A stretch of 37,406 nucleotides of DNA. It comes from Oscillospiraceae bacterium (GTDB lineage: Bacteria; Bacillota; Clostridia; Oscillospirales; Oscillospiraceae). The translations under genes were made by a program, and so were the position numbers. Numbering within the stretch: position 1 is the stretch's first letter; every line of letters begins with the position of its first letter. Shown here in pieces: positions 14,080 through 23,501 of the stretch. Under the pieces are notes generated by a model. That model was given only the letters and a program-made list of their open reading frames with translations, ran no database searches and was not told the origin of the DNA. The DNA lies in the NCBI GenBank assembly GCA_017552325.1, contig JAFZQE010000050.1, forward strand, positions 1 through 37,406, read 5' to 3'.

Positions 14080-14135
14080 TTTACATAATTTTATTTACAT
14101 ATTATTATCTACATAAAATCCTTAACATAATTTTA
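14080..14135 (-). repeat. 14-bp AT-rich tandem repeat array, four units
   Basis: Four consecutive 14-bp units at 14080, 14094, 14108 and 14122, in plus-strand sense TTTACATAATTTTA, TTTACATATTATTA, TCTACATAAAATCC and TTAACATAATTTTA. The last three bases of the fourth unit are the stop codon of the TRAP permease gene. Same family and orientation as the array at 5593. Confidence 0.85.
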
Positions 14136-16154
14136 TGAGTCTGCCGCTTCCTTCTTCTCCCTGCGGACGAGATAGCGCTGGAACAGCAGCACGGCCGCAA
14201 GCAGCAGAACGCCGATGACGTCGGTGATCGTCTGCGGATCCATCATCAGCAGGCCGCCCGCGCCGATCGCCAGCCGCAGCAGCGGGTGCATCGGCCGGAA
14301 GAGGTAGCCGTTGAGCGCGGCCGCCACGCCGAAGATGCCGATCACGGAGCTGACCACGACGAGGACCACCTGCAGCGGCGTCGTGTCGATCAGGAGCATG
14401 GCCGGGTTCATCGCAAAGATATAGGGCACGATGAAGGCCGCGATCGCGAGCTTTGAGGCGTTGAAGGCCGTTTTCATCGGCGGAGCCTTGGCGATGGCCG
14501 AGCCCGCGTAGGCCGCGAGCGCGACCGGCGGCGTGATGTCCGCGACGATGCCGAAGTAGAAGACGAAGAAATGCGCGGCGACGTCGGGGACGCCGATGGT
14601 GATGAGGATCGGCGCGCAGGTGGAGGCCATGATGCAGTAATTGGCCGTGGTTGGCACGCCCATGCCGAGCACGATGCAGCAGAGCATCGTCAGCGCCAGC
14701 GCGATCAGCACCCTGCCGCCGGAGACGGTGACGACCGCCGTGATCAGCTTCGAGGCCAGACCGGTGGAGGTGATGCTGCCCGCGACCAGACCGGCCATCG
14801 CGCAGGCCACCGCCACGGTGATCGTGCTGCGCGCGCCGGATTCCAGCGCGTCGATGATCTTGCTGAAATTCAGGCCGTTGTCCTCCGCCGCGTCGGGCTG
14901 AGCCTCAGCGCCTTCCGCCTTTTTCTTTGTGAGCGCCGGGATACGGTTGAACAGGCCGACGAGGATCGCAACGCCGATGGCGACCGCCGCGGCGAACTGC
15001 ATCGTGTGGCGGTTCGTCGCCACGAGCCAGACCAGAACGACCAGCGGCAAAAGCAGGTAGCTCATCGGCAGCAGTTTCCGCAGCTTCGGCAGCTCGTCGC
15101 GCGGGATGCCGCGCAGGCCGAGCTTCCGGGCCTCCAGATGCACGGCGATGTAGATGCCTGTGAAGTACAGCACCGCAGGCAGGATCGCCTTCAGCGCCAC
15201 CTGTCCGTAGGGAATGCCCATGTACTCGGCCATCAGGAAGGCCGCCGCGCCCATGATCGGGGGCATGATCTGACCGCCCGTGGAGGCCGCCGCCTCCACC
15301 GCGCCGGCGAATTCGCCCTTGTAGCCGGTGCGCTTCATCATCGGGATCGTCACCGAGCCGGTCGTCACCGTGTTGCCGACCGAGGAGCCGGAGACCATGC
15401 CGCAGAGCGCGGACGAGATCACGGCCACCTTGGCCGGGCCGCCGGCCGAAGCGCCGGCGACGGAATTGGCGAGGTCGATGAAGAAGGCTGATATGCCCGT
15501 TTTCTCCAGGAAAGCGCCGAAGATGATAAATACGACGATGTACTTCGCGCAGACGGTGATGGGCGTGCTGCGGATGCCGGTGTCGGCGTAGAAGAGGTCA
15601 TAGATCACCTTGCCGAAGCGGACGTTGATGAAGGCGTAGATCAGCAGCGCGCCGACCACGCAGAGGATCGGAATGCCCACGCAGCGGCGGCAGAGCTCCA
15701 TGAAGGAGAGGATCGCCGCGACCGCCATGGCGACCATGATCGGATCGCGCGTCGCGCGGGTCGCCATCGCGATGATGCTGTGGGCGTTGGCCGCGAAATA
15801 GAAGAAGGGCACCGCGCCGACGAGCATCAGCAGGATGTCGTACCAGGGCAGCGAATTGACCTTTACATGCGTCTTCTTGATGGGATAATACAGATAGCCG
15901 ATGATCAGGATAACGCCGAGAAAGATGTTCAGGCGCTCCTCGGGCATCATCGTGCTGAACAGGGTCACATAGATGCAATACAGCGAAAAAACTGCGCAGA
16001 AATAGCGCAGGATCTGCTTCGGGCGTCCTTCCCATATCCTGACGTTGGACTCCCGATCGTATTTTTTCATGACCTCGTCCAGAGATTCGGCGCTTGTTTC
16101 GACAGGAGCTCCGTCCGCGATCGCTTCTTCCTGTCTTCTCTTTTCCTCGTTCAT
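14133..16154 (-). CDS. TRAP transporter fused permease (DctQM type)
   Basis: 673 residues. Sodium- or proton-driven uptake permease in the cytoplasmic membrane. After a charged cytoplasmic N-terminus (about 55 residues), the small-subunit (Q-like) helices are followed by the large M-type transporter domain, the 4TM-12TM fusion usual for TRAP-TAXI systems. Conserved M-domain segments include SGSSVGNTVTTGSVTIPMMKR, EAAASTGGQIMPPIMGAAAF, GMGVPTTANYCIMA and ADITPPVALAAYAGS. The start at 16154 has GGAGA 5 bases upstream. It lies directly downstream of the TAXI binding lipoprotein, from which it is separated by a stable hairpin. The substrate is unknown; TAXI systems generally take organic acids. 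The stop codon is supplied by the repeat array. Confidence 0.95.
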   Translation of the reverse strand: MNEEKRRQEEAIADGAPVETSAESLDEVMKKYDRESNVRIWEGRPKQILRYFCAVFSLYCIYVTLFSTMMPEERLNIFLGVILIIGYLYYPIKKTHVKVNSLPWYDILLMLVGAVPFFYFAANAHSIIAMATRATRDPIMVAMAVAAILSFMELCRRCVGIPILCVVGALLIYAFINVRFGKVIYDLFYADTGIRSTPITVCAKYIVVFIIFGAFLEKTGISAFFIDLANSVAGASAGGPAKVAVISSALCGMVSGSSVGNTVTTGSVTIPMMKRTGYKGEFAGAVEAAASTGGQIMPPIMGAAAFLMAEYMGIPYGQVALKAILPAVLYFTGIYIAVHLEARKLGLRGIPRDELPKLRKLLPMSYLLLPLVVLVWLVATNRHTMQFAAAVAIGVAILVGLFNRIPALTKKKAEGAEAQPDAAEDNGLNFSKIIDALESGARSTITVAVACAMAGLVAGSITSTGLASKLITAVVTVSGGRVLIALALTMLCCIVLGMGVPTTANYCIMASTCAPILITIGVPDVAAHFFVFYFGIVADITPPVALAAYAGSAIAKAPPMKTAFNASKLAIAAFIVPYIFAMNPAMLLIDTTPLQVVLVVVSSVIGIFGVAAALNGYLFRPMHPLLRLAIGAGGLLMMDPQTITDVIGVLLLAAVLLFQRYLVRREKKEAADS

Positions 16155-16260: not shown

Positions 16261-17208
16261 TTATCCGTTGACCGTGAAGCCCTTTTCGGCAAAGAACTTC
16301 ACAGCGCCGGGATGATAGGGCACATCCGTTACGGAGGCGGCGAAGGCGAGGTCGAGCTCCTTGGCCTTGTCATGCGCGAGGCTGTCGGCATTGTTGAAGA
16401 CAGCGGACAGGAAGTTGTACACGTCCGCGTCCTTGACGTCGTTGCGGGCGATGACGACCGCGCCGACGGCGACCGTGCTCACGTCCTCAGGCGTGTTGTA
16501 GACCGAGGCGGGGATCACGTACTTCGTGTAGTAGGGCGAGGAGGCGGTCAGCGCGCTGATATGCTCGTCGTCGAGGCTGACCAGGTAGACGGGATTGGTG
16601 GCGGCCAGCGAGGTGACGGCGTTCGTCGGAGCGCCGGCCACGACAAAGGCGGCGTCGATCTGGCCGTCCTTCAGCGCCTCAGCGCTGTCGCCGAAGCTTT
16701 GGTAGGTGGGCTTGATGTCGTCCTCGCTCAGGCCGTAGGCGCTGAGGATATCGATCGCGTTGAAGTAAACGCCGGAACCGGAGGCGCCGATGGACACCTT
16801 GCGGTCGGCAAGGTCGGCGACGGTTTTGATATCGGGATTCAGGGTGACGATCTGGACCTGCTCCATGTAGAGCGCGGCGACGACGGAGAAGCCGCTGACG
16901 GCGCCGGTCTCGGCAAACAGGCGGCTGCCAGAATAGGCGTAGGCCATAACGTCAGACTGCACAAAGCCGAAGTCCGCGTCGCCGGCATCCAGGGACTCGA
17001 TGTTCGCCTTCGAGCCGCCGGAGGCGATGGCGGTGATCTTGGTGTCGGTGACTTCGCTGATCTTCTGCGACATCACGCCGCCGAAGGCGAAATAGGTACC
17101 CTGGTCGCCGCCGGTGGTGAAGACCAGGTCGCGCGACTTTTTGGCGCTGCAGGCGCACAGGCCGAGCAGCAGGCACAGGATAAGCAGAGCGGCAAGAAAT
17201 CTTTTCAT
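16261..17208 (-). CDS. TRAP transporter solute-binding lipoprotein, TAXI family
   Basis: 315 residues. The N-terminus (MKRFLAALLILCLLLGLCAC) is a signal peptide with candidate lipobox cysteines at its end, so the mature protein is probably lipid-anchored outside the membrane. The mature part has TAXI-family signatures: FTTGGDQGTYFAFGGVMSQKI at the front, SGGSKANIESLDAGDADFGFVQSD, then VSIGASGSGVYFNAIDILSAYG and the DAAFVVAGAPT segment. It captures the solute and delivers it to the fused permease encoded next. The start at 17208 follows GGAGG by 7 bases; an in-frame start 24 codons upstream has no ribosome binding site and would spoil the signal peptide. The upstream region holds an extended -10 promoter and an inverted repeat. 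Confidence 0.94.
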   Translation of the reverse strand: MKRFLAALLILCLLLGLCACSAKKSRDLVFTTGGDQGTYFAFGGVMSQKISEVTDTKITAIASGGSKANIESLDAGDADFGFVQSDVMAYAYSGSRLFAETGAVSGFSVVAALYMEQVQIVTLNPDIKTVADLADRKVSIGASGSGVYFNAIDILSAYGLSEDDIKPTYQSFGDSAEALKDGQIDAAFVVAGAPTNAVTSLAATNPVYLVSLDDEHISALTASSPYYTKYVIPASVYNTPEDVSTVAVGAVVIARNDVKDADVYNFLSAVFNNADSLAHDKAKELDLAFAASVTDVPYHPGAVKFFAEKGFTVNG

Positions 17209-17314
17209 AACAAATCCTCCCAAAATGATGATTTGCGGCTTCCCTGTCGGGCGGATCCAGTTCCCCCGTCGGATTATCATTCATCATCATACCGTTGCAG
17301 CAAAGCCGCCAAAA

Positions 17315-17585: not shown

Positions 17586-19052
17586 TCAATCCCTGCGGAA
17601 GAGATCGCGGGTGTAGACCTTGTCTTTCACGTCGTCGAGGCAGGAGTCGTAGCGGTTGGCGAGGATGCAGCCGCTCAGTTCCTTGAAGCGGCGCAGATCG
17701 TTGACGACCGGCGAACCGAAGAAGGTCTCCCCGTCCGGCAGGCTCGGTTCGTAGATGATGACCGAAGCGCCCTTGGCCTTGATGCGCTTCATGACGCCCT
17801 GGATCGAGCTCTGGCGGAAGTTGTCGGAATTGACCTTCATCGTCAGCCGGAAGACGCCGACCGTCACCGGCTTCTCCTGATCCGGGCTGTATTCGTTGCT
17901 GCCAGAGTAGGAATAGGCTCCGGCCATCTCCAGCACCCGGTCGGCTATGAAGTCCTTGCGGGTGCGGTTGCTCTCGACGATGGCGGAGATCATGTTCTGC
18001 GGCACATCGTTGAAATTGGCGAGAAGCTGCTTGGTGTCCTTCGGCAGACAGTAGCCGCCGTAGCCGAAGGAGGGGTTGTTGTAATGCGCGCCGATGCGCG
18101 GATCGAGGCAGACGCCGTCGATGATCTCGCGGGTGTTCAGGCCTTTGCTCTCGGCATAGGTGTCCAGCTCATTGAAATAACTGACGCGCAGCGCCAGATA
18201 GGTGTTGGCGAAGAGCTTGACGGCCTCGGCCTCGCTCGGACCCATGATCAGCTTCGGCACGTCCTCCTTCAGCGCTGCCGCAGCCAGCAGCCCGGCGAAG
18301 GTCTCCGCCTCCTTCCGCTGTCCGGCTTCCGCCCCCACGATGATGCGCGAGGGGTAGAGATTGTCGAACAGCGCCCTGGATTCGCGCAGGAACTCCGGCG
18401 AGAAGAGAATGCGCTCGGAGCCGAAGCGCGCCCTGGCGGCCTTCGTGTAGCCCACCGGGACTGTGGACTTGATGACGATCGTCGCTGCCGGATTGAGCCG
18501 GAGCGCCTTTTCGATCACGTCCTCGACGGCGGAGGTGTCAAAGAAATTCTTCTTCGTGTCGTAATTGGTCGGCGTGGCGACGATGACGTAGTCCGCGCTC
18601 CCGTAGGCGAGCTGCTCGTCGAGAGTCGCCGTCAGATCCAGGCCGCCCTCGCGCAGGGCCTGTTCGATCTCCCCGTCGCGGATTGGGGACCGGCCGCGGT
18701 TGACCATGTCTGCCTTCGCCTGAGTGCGGCAGGTGGCAAAGACCTTGTTCTGACGCGCCAGCAGCACCGCCATCGACAGCCCCACATAGCCGAGCCCCGC
18801 TACGGCGATCACCGGCTTTTTGCCGGACGGAAGCGCGGGCTCTTCGGTGTACAGCGCGGCGGCGTCGAAGCCGAGGATCTCCGCCAGCACGTCGAGCTGG
18901 TCGAGCGAGGGCTTGTAGTCCTCGTTTTCCAGCCTGCCGAGCATCGAGCGGTGGATCCCGCTGCGCTGCGCCAGCTCCGCCTGTGTCATTTGCTGCTCAC
19001 GGCGGCAGCGCTTGACCGTTTCCGCCAGCTTTTTTGAGGAAAACTTTTTCAT
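17586..19052 (-). CDS. ugd: UDP-glucose 6-dehydrogenase with N-terminal XRE helix-turn-helix
   Basis: 488 residues. The C-terminal ~410 residues are a HasB-like nucleotide-sugar dehydrogenase that oxidises UDP-glucose to UDP-glucuronate with two [11 protein letters not shown] Rossmann motif after residue 80, [19 protein letters not shown], and the catalytic Cys335 in [10 protein letters not shown]. The first ~70 residues are an XRE/Cro-type DNA-binding domain ([16 protein letters not shown], then [14 protein letters not shown]), fused in frame with no internal ribosome binding site evident. The start at 19052 follows AAAGGAG by 10 bases. The promoter region contains two inverted repeats that could be its own operators, so the protein may act as both enzyme and autoregulator. 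It is divergent from the MBOAT/DHHW operon. A nucleotide-sugar dehydrogenase of slightly different specificity (for example UDP-ManNAc) is less likely. Confidence 0.93.
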
Positions 19053-19069
19053 TTTCCGATAAGCTCCTT

Positions 19070-19088
19070 TGTTATGTCGTTTATAACA
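19070..19088. promoter_or_regulatory. Inverted repeat in the ugd leader, candidate operator 1
   Basis: TGTTAT (19070-19075), a 7-base spacer, and ATAACA (19083-19088): a perfect 6-bp inverted repeat immediately upstream of the ugd ribosome binding site and about 11-30 bases downstream of the predicted transcription start. Confidence 0.55.
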
Positions 19089-19110
19089 TCATATATTACG
19101 CAAATATGAT
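19088..19110. promoter_or_regulatory. Inverted repeat over the ugd -10, candidate operator 2
   Basis: ATCATAT (19088-19094), a 9-base spacer, and ATATGAT (19104-19110): a perfect 7-bp inverted repeat covering most of the ugd -10 hexamer (19106-19111) and the expected start point. A bound dimeric XRE protein would block transcription. Confidence 0.6.
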
Positions 19111-19134
19111 ATCACAGGCGTCTTTTTCTGTCAA
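19106..19134 (-). promoter_or_regulatory. ugd promoter
   Basis: Minus-strand TTGACA (19129-19134) and TATCAT (19106-19111) separated by 17 bp. Confidence 0.85.
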
Positions 19135-19187: not shown

Positions 19188-19216
19188 TTGCAAAAAGGCG
19201 GTGTTTTTTGTAAAAT
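19188..19216 (+). promoter_or_regulatory. Promoter of the MBOAT-DHHW operon
   Basis: Plus-strand TTGCAA (19188-19193) and TAAAAT (19211-19216) separated by 17 bp; leader of about 65 bases. It diverges from the ugd promoter with about 55 bases between the two -35 elements. Confidence 0.75.
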
Positions 19217-20699: not shown

Positions 20700-22103
20700 A
20701 TGAAGCGTCCCTATTTTCGACTTGCCGCCGTTTACCTCTGCCTGCTGGCGGCCTTCTGCCTCGGTCTCGGGGAGCTGCTTCTGGCAGAGAAAGAAGAGCG
20801 GCCCTCCTACACCGAAAACCGCATGCTGCGGGGCTTTCCCGCGCTCACGGCCGCCTCGCTGCGCGACGGCAGCTTTATGGACGGCTTTGAGGCCTGGCTT
20901 TCCGACGCCTTTTTCTTCCGCGAGGAGGCCGCCGCCTTCTCTGACGGTACAAAAACGCTCTTTTCTCTCCGCTCCGACGATCCCGCGGCCGCCGTCGTCC
21001 CCGAGGCGCAGGCCTGGGCGCTGGACGAGGAGGAGCAGCGGGAGCTGGACGAGCTGATCGAAGAGATCGCCTCGGAGACCCCGTCCCCCACGGCTTCCCC
21101 GCAGGATGTCGAAGAGGAAGAAGCGCCTGCAGCCGCCGCGCCGCTCGCTTCGGCGGAGGCCTTCCGCCGTCCGACCCCGGAGGTGACGCAGAGCGCCTCG
21201 ATCTGGACGGAGAAGGCCGACGGCCGCCGCTCGGTCTATGAGAGCTTTCCCGCGGATCATATCGCCGTTCTGGCGCGTGTCCTCAACGAATACCGCGCCG
21301 CCCTGCCCGCCGACGGGACCGTCAGTCTGCTCAACCCGATGGTCGCCGACCTGGCCAACACCGTGCTGCAGGAGCACACGGCCGTGGACTGGGGCTGCGA
21401 TCTGGACGAGGTGCTGCAGCCTTATCTGGACGAGGGTGTGCGCTTTTACGATCAGACAGATATCCTGAGGCCCTATGTCGGGCTCTATACGCTGTATCCG
21501 ACCGTCGACCATCACTGGCATCCCATCAGCGCCAAGCTCGCGCTGGACGCGATGCTGAGCGATCAGGGGCCGGTGCCCAACGGATATGACGAATACCGCT
21601 ACTGGCTGGACAATGTCCACGACGCCGGGCCCTTCACGGCACAGGAGCTGGAAGCTGTCACGCGCAGCATCGAACAGGTGCCGGTGACGGTGCTGAACGC
21701 GCCAGCGGAAAGCTACTGCCTGGAGCGGCTGACGGAGCTGTCTCCCAGCAAGCTGATCGACCATGAGGATTCGCTGGCCTATGCGCAGTATTTCGGCGGC
21801 AATCTTCATACCTGGCGTCTTTTCGTCACCGGCTTCCACACAGGACGGAGCGCCATGGTCATCGGCGACAGCTTCGACCTGCCCTTTATCGCCTATCTCT
21901 TCCCCTATTACGACCGGATCCTCGTCACCGACTTCCGCGACGGCGGCTACTCCCGCGCGGAGGCCGGCGCGAACGTCAGCGAATACATCGCCGAATATGA
22001 GGTCAGCGATGTGTACATCATCTACTGCAGTTATTTCTCTCTCAACACCGACACGGTGCAGGATCGGCTGGAGCGCTATTTCTTCATGGTTTACGACCGC
22101 TGA
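20700..22103 (+). CDS. DHHW family protein 1 (AlgJ/AlgX-like)
   Basis: 467 residues. An N-terminal membrane anchor or uncleaved signal (LAAVYLCLLAAFCLGLGELL) leads to an extracellular domain. Residues 30-85 (ERPSYTENRML.GFP, then FEAWLSDAFFFREEA) are the typical entry region of this family. A low-complexity acidic/proline linker spans about 100-155, and the family motif VDHHWHP has Asp270-His271-His272-Trp273. A Ser in VIGDSFDLPF near residue 390 resembles the GDSF nucleophile loop of SGNH-like acyltransferases. With the MBOAT upstream, it is predicted to transfer acetyl groups to a glycan outside the cell. Tandem paralogue of the next gene; their first ~85 codons are nearly identical at the DNA level, unlike the rest. 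Confidence 0.9.
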   Translation: MKRPYFRLAAVYLCLLAAFCLGLGELLLAEKEERPSYTENRMLRGFPALTAASLRDGSFMDGFEAWLSDAFFFREEAAAFSDGTKTLFSLRSDDPAAAVVPEAQAWALDEEEQRELDELIEEIASETPSPTASPQDVEEEEAPAAAAPLASAEAFRRPTPEVTQSASIWTEKADGRRSVYESFPADHIAVLARVLNEYRAALPADGTVSLLNPMVADLANTVLQEHTAVDWGCDLDEVLQPYLDEGVRFYDQTDILRPYVGLYTLYPTVDHHWHPISAKLALDAMLSDQGPVPNGYDEYRYWLDNVHDAGPFTAQELEAVTRSIEQVPVTVLNAPAESYCLERLTELSPSKLIDHEDSLAYAQYFGGNLHTWRLFVTGFHTGRSAMVIGDSFDLPFIAYLFPYYDRILVTDFRDGGYSRAEAGANVSEYIAEYEVSDVYIIYCSYFSLNTDTVQDRLERYFFMVYDR

Positions 22104-22127
22104 TCCTCGCCTCAGGCAGAGTTTCCT

Positions 22128-23501
22128 ATGAAAAAACGCAGACAATTGATCGCCGTATACCTCTGCCTGCTGGCGGCCTTCTGCCTCGGTCTCGGGGAGC
22201 TGCTTCTGGCGGACAGGGACGAGCGGCCATCCTATACCGAAAACCGCATGCTGCAGGGCTTTCCCGCGCTCAGCGCCGCCTCGCTGCGCGACGGCAGCTT
22301 CATGGACGGCTTTGAGGCCTGGCTTTCCGACGCCTTTTTCTTCCGCGAGGAGGCCGCCGCCTTCTCCGAGGGGACGAAGGGCCTGTTTTCAGTGACGGAT
22401 CCGGAGGCCTTTGATCCGGGCCTCGACCAGGACCGGCTGTTTGAGGCCGACGAAACGCAGCAGCAGGATCTGCAGGAGGCGCTGCAGCAGGAGCTGAACA
22501 CGCCCGAGCCTGTCTCCGCAGGGGCGGAAGCTGCGGCGACCGGCGATACCCTCGGCGCGCCGCAGGGGCACGCGGCCGGAAAGGCCGAGTTCTGGCTGGA
22601 GCGTTTGGACGGAACGCGCTCGGTCTACGCCGAGGTCTCCGCCGAGAATCTGGACAACCTGGCCCGCATCCTCGGCGAATACCGCGCGGAGCTGCCTGAG
22701 GACGGGACGCTGCATCTGATCTGCCCCCCGGTCTCCTCGATCGCCAACCAGGTCATCCGCGACGGCAATTTCAGCGCCTGGGGCAGCAGCCTGTCGGAGC
22801 TCCTGCAGCCCATCGTCGGCGAGGGCATTGTGATCCACGACAGCTTTCCGGCCGCGCAGCCCTACATCGGCAGCGAGCGGCTGTATCCGACCGTCGACCA
22901 CCACTGGCATCCCTTCCTCGCCTGCGAGACGGTAAAGCTCATGCTGGAGGGACAGGGGCTCGAGGCCGGAGATTTCTACGACTACCTCTATACCCTGGCC
23001 AATTCGCCCTACACGGGGGCCTATACGGAGCAGGAGCTGCGCGCGCTGGACATCAACGCGGAGCTCGTGGAGGTCATGGTACCGCGCGCGCCGGCCGAGA
23101 GCTACATCCTCACGCATCTGACCGAGCGCAGCGACAGCGTCCTCATCGACCCGGACGCGCAGGGCTACCGGCAGTATCTGAGCGGCACGCGCGCCCCCTG
23201 GCGGCTGTTCATCGGCGGCTACCACACCGGGCGGCAGGCCCTGGTCATCGCCGACAGCTTCGGCAACTGCCTGATCCCATATCTGCTGCCCTATTACGAC
23301 GAGGTGCTGTCGACGGACTTCCGCGACAACGGCTACGCGATCTACGAGGCCGGCGCGAACGCGCGGGACTACATCCGCGAGTACGGCGTCGACGACATCT
23401 ACATCATCCTCTGCTCGGGAACGCCGCTGGACGGCGAAGTCGTGCAGGATCGATTTGAACGCTATTTGTATCTGGACTACGAGGCGCTGATGAAGCGCTG
23501 A
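22128..23501 (+). CDS. DHHW family protein 2 (AlgJ/AlgX-like)
   Basis: 457 residues, same layout as the preceding gene: membrane anchor (IAVYLCLLAAFCLGLGELL), ERPSYTENRML entry region, variable linker rich in Gln/Glu (about 95-145), DHHW motif at residues 257-260, and VIADSFGNCLIPY as the counterpart of the GDSF-like loop. The substitution of Gly by Ala before DSF is a difference between the paralogues. It starts 24 bases after the upstream stop and is part of the same operon. Two non-identical copies beside one MBOAT may serve different acetylation sites or glycans; alternatively one is redundant. Confidence 0.9.
   Translation: MKKRRQLIAVYLCLLAAFCLGLGELLLADRDERPSYTENRMLQGFPALSAASLRDGSFMDGFEAWLSDAFFFREEAAAFSEGTKGLFSVTDPEAFDPGLDQDRLFEADETQQQDLQEALQQELNTPEPVSAGAEAAATGDTLGAPQGHAAGKAEFWLERLDGTRSVYAEVSAENLDNLARILGEYRAELPEDGTLHLICPPVSSIANQVIRDGNFSAWGSSLSELLQPIVGEGIVIHDSFPAAQPYIGSERLYPTVDHHWHPFLACETVKLMLEGQGLEAGDFYDYLYTLANSPYTGAYTEQELRALDINAELVEVMVPRAPAESYILTHLTERSDSVLIDPDAQGYRQYLSGTRAPWRLFIGGYHTGRQALVIADSFGNCLIPYLLPYYDEVLSTDFRDNGYAIYEAGANARDYIREYGVDDIYIILCSGTPLDGEVVQDRFERYLYLDYEALMKR

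Follow-up and report, generated by a model that had tools for sequence, protein, structure and literature searches.

We analyzed a 37,406-nucleotide contig of an Oscillospiraceae bacterium (GenBank assembly GCA_017552325.1, contig JAFZQE010000050.1; this whole stretch is referred to as the window), in which one minus-strand gene joins an XRE-type helix-turn-helix (HTH) domain to a UDP-glucose dehydrogenase (UGDH). Because the enzyme carries a built-in DNA-binding domain and a matching target site lies before the genes of many of its relatives, it very probably controls its own production. The gene and the parts of its product are as follows.

17586-19052, minus strand: gene for the HTH-UGDH fusion, a single open frame of 488 amino acids with an ATG start (Pfam and NCBIfam)
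18864-19016, minus strand: XRE/HTH_3 DNA-binding domain, residues 13 to 63 (PF01381, E = 9.1e-12, above cutoff)
18927-18956, minus strand: recognition-helix segment, residues 33 to 42 (alignment of 56 fusions)
18312-18809, minus strand: UGDH NAD-binding domain, residues 82 to 247 (PF03721)
17964-18233, minus strand: UGDH central domain, residues 274 to 363 (PF00984)
17628-17855, minus strand: UGDH UDP-binding domain, residues 400 to 475 (PF03720)
18048-18050, minus strand: codon of the catalytic Cys335, in a GGYCLPKD motif, invariant in 40 aligned rows

The window protein scores 45.3 bits against the Pfam cutoff of 23 for HTH_3, and its three UGDH domains all exceed their own Pfam cutoffs. It is a member of the nucleotide sugar dehydrogenase subfamily TIGR03026 (283.7 bits against an NCBIfam cutoff of 189.8). 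The equivalog NF011631 (Ugd) is still its best-matching equivalog, although the score of 520.7 bits falls below the cutoff of 757. Residues 82 to 488 align with structures of the Ugd/HasB type (PDB 3phl and 1dli) over all three domains and the catalytic cysteine. Residues T197, E220, E224, K279, N283, C335, and D339 are invariant in an alignment of the window protein with 29 other fusions and 10 stand-alone enzymes (40 rows, covering 30 of the 62 fusions compared below). We take the catalytic role of Cys335 and the roles of the other active-site residues to be those of the Streptococcus pyogenes enzyme, and the limits of the recognition helix are presumably those of other XRE folds. As judged from its sequence, the window protein is thus a complete UDP-glucose 6-dehydrogenase with an N-terminal XRE HTH, as an earlier sequence-only reading of this DNA had proposed. 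The fusion gene appears to stand alone: the next same-strand open reading frame (ORF), which resembles a solute-binding protein by eye, begins about 300 bp downstream. On this downstream side, the minus-strand stretches 16261-17280 and 14133-16154 seem by eye to hold TRAP-type transporter genes (a solute-binding protein and a fused membrane subunit).

The region before the start codon contains the following features.

19064-19069, minus strand: ribosome-binding site AAGGAG, 11 nucleotides from the ATG, read from the sequence
19070-19088, no strand: leader palindrome TGTTAT-N7-ATAACA, perfect, with half-sites of the family type spaced 2 bp wider; an alternative operator register
19075-19091, minus strand: best match to the family operator, TGATGTTATAAACGACA, in the leader, beginning 39 bp before the ATG; found with a matrix trained without this locus
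19088-19110, no strand: −10 palindrome ATCATAT-N9-ATATGAT, perfect, not found upstream of the other 61 fusions
19106-19134, minus strand: promoter of the fusion gene, TTGACA-17-TATCAT, with TG preceding the −10 (11 of 12 consensus matches)
19188-19216, plus strand: weaker promoter-like site of the divergent acyltransferase gene (9 of 12 matches; MBOAT by Pfam), a candidate only as part of the system

Both palindromes are present just as the sequence-only reading had described them. On their own they are marginal evidence: two perfect inverted repeats with arms of at least 6 bp and gaps of 0 to 15 bp occur in the 100 bp before the ATG, against a shuffle mean of 0.35, but 4.8% of 500 shuffles also reach two. 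With arms of at least 7 bp there is one such repeat (shuffle mean, 0.07), which 6.8% of shuffles match. None of the other 61 fusions has either exact palindrome within the 300 bp before its gene. The sequence TGTTAT-N7-ATAACA occurs at a single place in the genome bin (2.09 Mb, about 75% complete).

The HTH-UGDH fusion is widespread, mostly in Bacillota, and the search for the same domain architecture in other genomes recovered it many times. Within the genus, 16 fusion genes occurred in 15 of 102 genomes (E limit, 1e-15), and many other genus genomes had, among the matches listed, a closely similar enzyme that lacks the HTH. When genome contigs were scanned and the best 80 of at least 590 relatives kept, fusions appeared in records with the labels Lachnospiraceae, Ruminococcus, Erysipelotrichaceae, Selenomonas, Mogibacterium, Streptococcus suis, Enterococcus, and Spirochaetales. 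A class sample of 391 genomes yielded four further fusions; to look outside the class, 398 genomes of a phylum sample were searched at an E limit of 1e-18, the query starting about 14 residues in, and only the window's fusion was found. For comparison we used 62 fusion loci and 75 stand-alone ugd loci, the latter with at least 193 bp of upstream sequence; start codons were chosen by script. The stand-alone set leaves out L037, a frameshifted fusion, and three genes cut by contig ends (L095, L097, and L123); L001 and L002 were excluded from the locus set altogether. L114 and L115, near-copies of L038 and L042, are counted among the 62 and kept outside the tree and covariation sets. In three other contigs (G082:C50, G060:C59, and G068:C53), the ugd matches are part of open frames some 770 amino acids long, with one stop within the matched stretch.

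In a tree of the UGDH domains (135 rows), fusions cluster strongly, needing 8 label changes where shuffles need 44; in this quick tree the window has a long branch beside stand-alone rows. In an approximately unbiased (AU) test on 54 chosen rows, a single clade including the window was not rejected (P = 0.87); these rows omit seven fusions with other positions in the large tree (L039, L049, L050, L053, L055, L061, and L075). Three fusions are plasmid borne (L205, L206, and L207, from Butyrivibrio, Enterococcus hirae, and E. faecalis, respectively). This location, together with transposase genes nearby in the two Enterococcus records, suggests that the self-regulated unit can move as a cassette. 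All three plasmid records annotate the gene merely as a nucleotide sugar dehydrogenase, and its regulatory half thereby goes unseen.

A recurring palindrome was first seen by reading the upstream regions of the fusions. In a gap scan that assumes no sequence, palindromes with 5-bp arms and a 7-bp gap were found upstream of 34 of 55 fusions (shuffles gave 12.1 ± 2.6) and of 9 of 52 loci then classed as stand-alone; gaps of 3, 5, 9, 11, and 13 were raised too, most of which a shared centre would give. The 17-bp pattern TGTYR-N7-YRACA stood upstream of 36 of the first 56 fusions, while shuffled upstream sequences gave a mean of 0.26 and a maximum of 4. Within 300 bp of the start codon, the exact pattern was found in 40 of 62 fusions and in none of the 75 stand-alone ugd loci. 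The contrast holds when proteins are grouped at 80% identity, with the operator in 16 of 28 fusion-only clusters and 0 of 15 stand-alone-only clusters (P = 1.5e-4 by Fisher's test). In the single large mixed cluster formed by single linkage at that identity, 7 of 13 fusions had the operator and 0 of 47 stand-alone genes did. Leave-one-out matrix scores of at least 12 were reached by 46 of 62 fusions, against 0 of 75 stand-alone loci. When only genes that have a strong promoter-like site no more than 150 bp away are counted, the operator was present in 27 of 33 fusions and 0 of 7 stand-alone genes. Within the fusion loci, 61 sites fall in the 350-bp upstream regions (21.7 kb in total) and 15 in the remaining 477 kb.

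In genomes that hold both kinds of gene, no operator was found at the stand-alone gene of G039 (L208) or G065 (L016). No split or relic HTH was found near stand-alone ugd genes at an E value of 1e-3 in six loci searched with six HTH queries, four of the loci lying in or beside the main fusion clade. A single weak match resembling the site (10.6) lies at −182 in the stand-alone locus L077. In L037 (Clostridium polysaccharolyticum, from 5001), where the broken fusion frame may reflect a sequencing error or a decaying copy, there is no exact operator; a near-operator scoring 14.5 lies at −33. The fusion family thus has, by these sequence comparisons, a specific 17-bp operator upstream of its own gene that is not found upstream of stand-alone ugd. 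The earlier proposal that the fusion acts on its own gene is supported by this association. As for conservation among orthologous fusions, what persists is the family operator and the recognition helix (R35 in 53 of 56 aligned fusions and E42 in 55 of 56); the exact palindromes do not recur.

The sites have a characteristic layout around the promoters, which were picked by a simple consensus score, some picks being doubtful. Leader sites mostly begin 24 to 40 bp past the predicted −10, and many members have an upstream site before the −35, beginning 103 to 106 bp before the end of the −10 in 11 loci from several lineages. Two exact sites stand 96 to 162 bp apart in 17 of 62 loci, and three more loci have pairs at 33 to 43 bp only. 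The plasmid fusions, which lie outside the training set, repeat this arrangement: in regions of 6.4 to 8.4 kb, the top two matrix hits are a leader site and an upstream site (−38 and −132 in the Butyrivibrio fibrisolvens D1 plasmid, whose fusion protein is WP_073386844.1, −31 and −155 in E. hirae, and −33 and −157 in E. faecalis). Three of the four plasmid records with a full-length match were examined, and the two Enterococcus records are near-copies. In L050, a strong operator match (22.7) lies at +32, inside the coding sequence after the start codon, in a stretch that also encodes HTH residues.

This layout would also suit a fusion that binds its own promoter mainly as an activator or dual regulator, with a class I-like upstream site (centred near −104 relative to the inferred start) and a leader site that limits expression. 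The recurrent upstream spacing in several lineages speaks for such a role, as do members with an upstream site and no exact leader site. So does the helical phase of upstream positions relative to the −10, which is nonuniform (Rayleigh P = 0.003 to 0.01 for 23 hand-listed positions, uncorrected for kinship). We nevertheless regard activation as unlikely. The commonest site position is in the leader past the start point, which fits repression; the window has a leader site only, with no counterpart of the upstream site, and many of the picked promoters have near-consensus hexamers that would need no activator.

The window's own site, 19075-19091, scores 17.5 with a matrix built from 55 exact sites, window excluded. 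It is the top place in the 37 kb, the next best scoring 3.84, and only 1 of 3,000 random 300-mers of the same base composition scores as high. The palindromes had been read as the operator; neither holds as it was read, although the 17-bp site overlaps both. Its third base is off consensus, a departure shared by the leader sites of L066, L100, and L102.

The window protein may alternatively have lost the family specificity, leaving 19075-19091 as a relic or chance match and an HTH that acts elsewhere or nowhere. The window's long branch is consistent with this, as are the mismatch at a conserved operator base, the lack of an upstream site, and two recognition-helix residues, H34 and G39, where 45 of 56 fusions have N34 and 45 of 56 have S39. 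Against it, the one strong match in 37 kb lies in the leader, where many relatives keep theirs, and the window promoter is strong and intact. The window HTH, moreover, matches all 61 other fusion HTHs at E values below 1e-3, the best being L033 (56% identity over 71 residues; E = 7e-29). We consider a loss of specificity improbable.

The half-site bases appear to track recognition-helix residues, in a test that is underpowered after phylogenetic correction. Among 36 fusions with exact sites (window excluded), residues 34 and 36 took the first two ranks among 80 tested as predictors of base 4 of the half-site (C or T), and the six best for base 5 (A or G) included residues 41, 38, 36, and 34. 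S34 pairs with C at base 4 in six of six cases, and A36 pairs with A at base 5 (mean G share, 0.06; n = 9). The later cases L117, L118, and L175 fit these trends, and L189 fits through a one-mismatch site. These pairings bear on whether an unlinked XRE repressor might instead bind the operator, the fusion's own HTH being a passenger or serving oligomerization only. A few fusions with a degenerate HTH or without a site (L020 and L083) would agree with that. We find it very unlikely, as the base preferences follow the fusion's own helix, the two HTHs most degenerate by eye have no site, and the operator tracks the fusion and not the stand-alone enzyme even inside one 80%-linked cluster. That the leader palindrome is an RNA hairpin controlling translation, as its place in the 5′ leader and its complementary arms might suggest, is scarcely credible, given that in many loci the same motif precedes the predicted −35 and lies beyond the transcript, and that TGT/ACA half-site identity is kept while mismatched arms occur.

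Several observations weigh against a family operator bound by the fusion and acting in repression. Exact sites are absent from 22 of 62 fusions, and 16 of 62 score below 12 with the matrix. A strong promoter-like site falls within 150 bp of just 7 of 75 stand-alone genes, compared with 33 of 62 fusions, and part of the contrast between the two groups may therefore stem from operon-internal ugd genes. In the window, one strongly conserved base of the site deviates, and the 17-bp and 19-bp registers conflict: the matrix favours 19075-19091, while relatives that share the window's H34 and have exact sites carry TGTTA half-sites in three of three cases, as in the 19-bp palindrome. In the residue associations, the six best for base 5 also include positions 13 and 47, outside the helix, and many positions outperform their own shuffles, an effect expected from shared descent. 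The plasmid case L205 (T36, with T at base 4) departs from the base 4 trend, and independent tree pairs number three for and none against in the best coding (P = 0.25), other codings giving fewer informative pairs. Site-to-site distances have no significant helical phasing (P = 0.08 to 0.90), and leader positions are likewise not nonuniform. Finally, five genus members have an upstream site only (about −105) and no exact leader site, which simple leader repression fits poorly.

At three stand-alone loci (L134, L124, and L078), ugd seems to follow directly after the end of another ORF, by eye an epimerase C terminus, and these genes may be without a promoter of their own.

We looked for targets beyond the fusion's own promoter. 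A tight form of the 17-bp pattern had 44 sites in 25 genomes, 21 of them at fusion promoters; a reversed-pattern control gave 30 sites, against the 23 that remain, so no wider regulon is visible at this sensitivity. The window's own genome has 7 one-mismatch sites, against 5 in the control. A wider regulon was therefore set aside, the exact pattern elsewhere in the 25 genomes being at control level. The divergent acyltransferase operon, which had been suggested as a second target, also fell away as a conserved one: a divergent neighbour is present at 37 of 62 fusions, and the 30 examined are mixed, with Polysacc_synt_2 the commonest match (4 cases) and the window's gene the sole MBOAT. Downstream same-strand neighbours (26 of 38 ORFs examined, genes called as simple longest ORFs) included 11 NAD-dependent epimerases of the nucleotide-sugar kind, 3 galactokinase-like proteins, and 2 UGDH-family proteins. 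Beyond the window's acyltransferase gene, 20700-23501 on the plus strand holds two tandem related ORFs of 467 and 457 amino acids with near-identical N termini, by eye perhaps a duplicated O-acetylation partner.

Taken together, the fusion is probably a trigger enzyme that binds a dedicated operator at its own promoter, with repression as its proposed action. A trigger enzyme of this kind pairs a complete enzyme and a DNA-binding domain with a cognate operator at its own promoter. The window protein has the first two by its domains, and the operator is predicted for the family, the window's own site being nonexact. The operator's association with the fusion argues strongly that the fusion's HTH binds it, and the leader position makes it likely that binding represses the gene. 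That the fusion bridges two operators is possible, judging from the site layout, and tuning by a nucleotide sugar or NAD(H) may be expected by analogy. In the proposed mechanism, an XRE HTH was added to the N terminus of a UDP-glucose 6-dehydrogenase whose catalytic residues were retained, and the enzyme dimer would present two HTHs to the palindrome. Repression of the gene and, where one follows, of a downstream epimerase would come from binding in the initially transcribed leader, with or without a loop to the upstream site. Occupancy would be set by the amount of enzyme and probably also by substrate, product, or NAD(H), keeping the UDP-glucuronate supply in check.

More tentatively, and with considerable doubt, the fusions might form a widespread, horizontally spread class of self-regulating sugar-nucleotide enzymes in which the UGDH oligomer bridges two operators around its promoter. 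The bound nucleotide sugar or the NAD(H) state would open or close the loop, and the committed step to UDP-glucuronate would set its own transcription without a separate regulator. If the trigger-enzyme reading is true, it places a trigger enzyme in a pathway that feeds capsules and exopolysaccharides. It would also provide a feedback circuit that is simple and self-contained, with a defined operator in dozens of bacteria, most of them from the gut, and on plasmids. The naturally paired variants of recognition helix and operator could serve to study XRE specificity.

To our knowledge, few trigger enzymes have a fused DNA-binding domain, and most of those are catabolic or vitamin enzymes. A layout similar to that of the fusion sites is found in the gal operon loop of GalR, whose two operators lie about 110 bp from each other on either side of the promoter, the downstream one within the transcribed region. 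GalR differs in that it is not an enzyme, and for the fusion the site layout suggests possible looping. UGDHs of the Ugd/HasB type (PDB 3phl and 1dli) differ in that the aligned part starts at the Rossmann fold, with no HTH match reported. Among the matches listed in the open-licence literature, no title or abstract opening described an HTH-UGDH fusion or its operator. Trigger enzymes in general are described in PMC3901225, and a passage search of the main text of PMC5882156 gave no mention of dehydrogenases.

Two characterized systems come closer. BzdR joins an XRE HTH to a shikimate-kinase-like domain and thus has the same type of HTH placed N-terminal to a metabolite-sensing enzyme fold (PMC3602430). 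Its enzyme domain became an effector sensor for another pathway, whereas the predicted target here is the fusion's own gene; a noncatalytic sensor domain of the BzdR kind is not what we find, as the catalytic residues are invariant in the 30 aligned fusions of 62. Trifunctional PutA, in which a ribbon-helix-helix (RHH) domain is joined to an enzyme, is an autogenous repressor and so resembles the proposed action of the fusion, that of an enzyme repressing its own genes (PMC5293562). PutA differs in its RHH fold and in regulating the put regulon, whereas here an XRE HTH sits on a sugar-nucleotide dehydrogenase and no target was detected past its own promoter. With these differences, the fusion is best read as a trigger enzyme in the style of PutA, one that would bind, and most likely repress, its own promoter, often from two sites.
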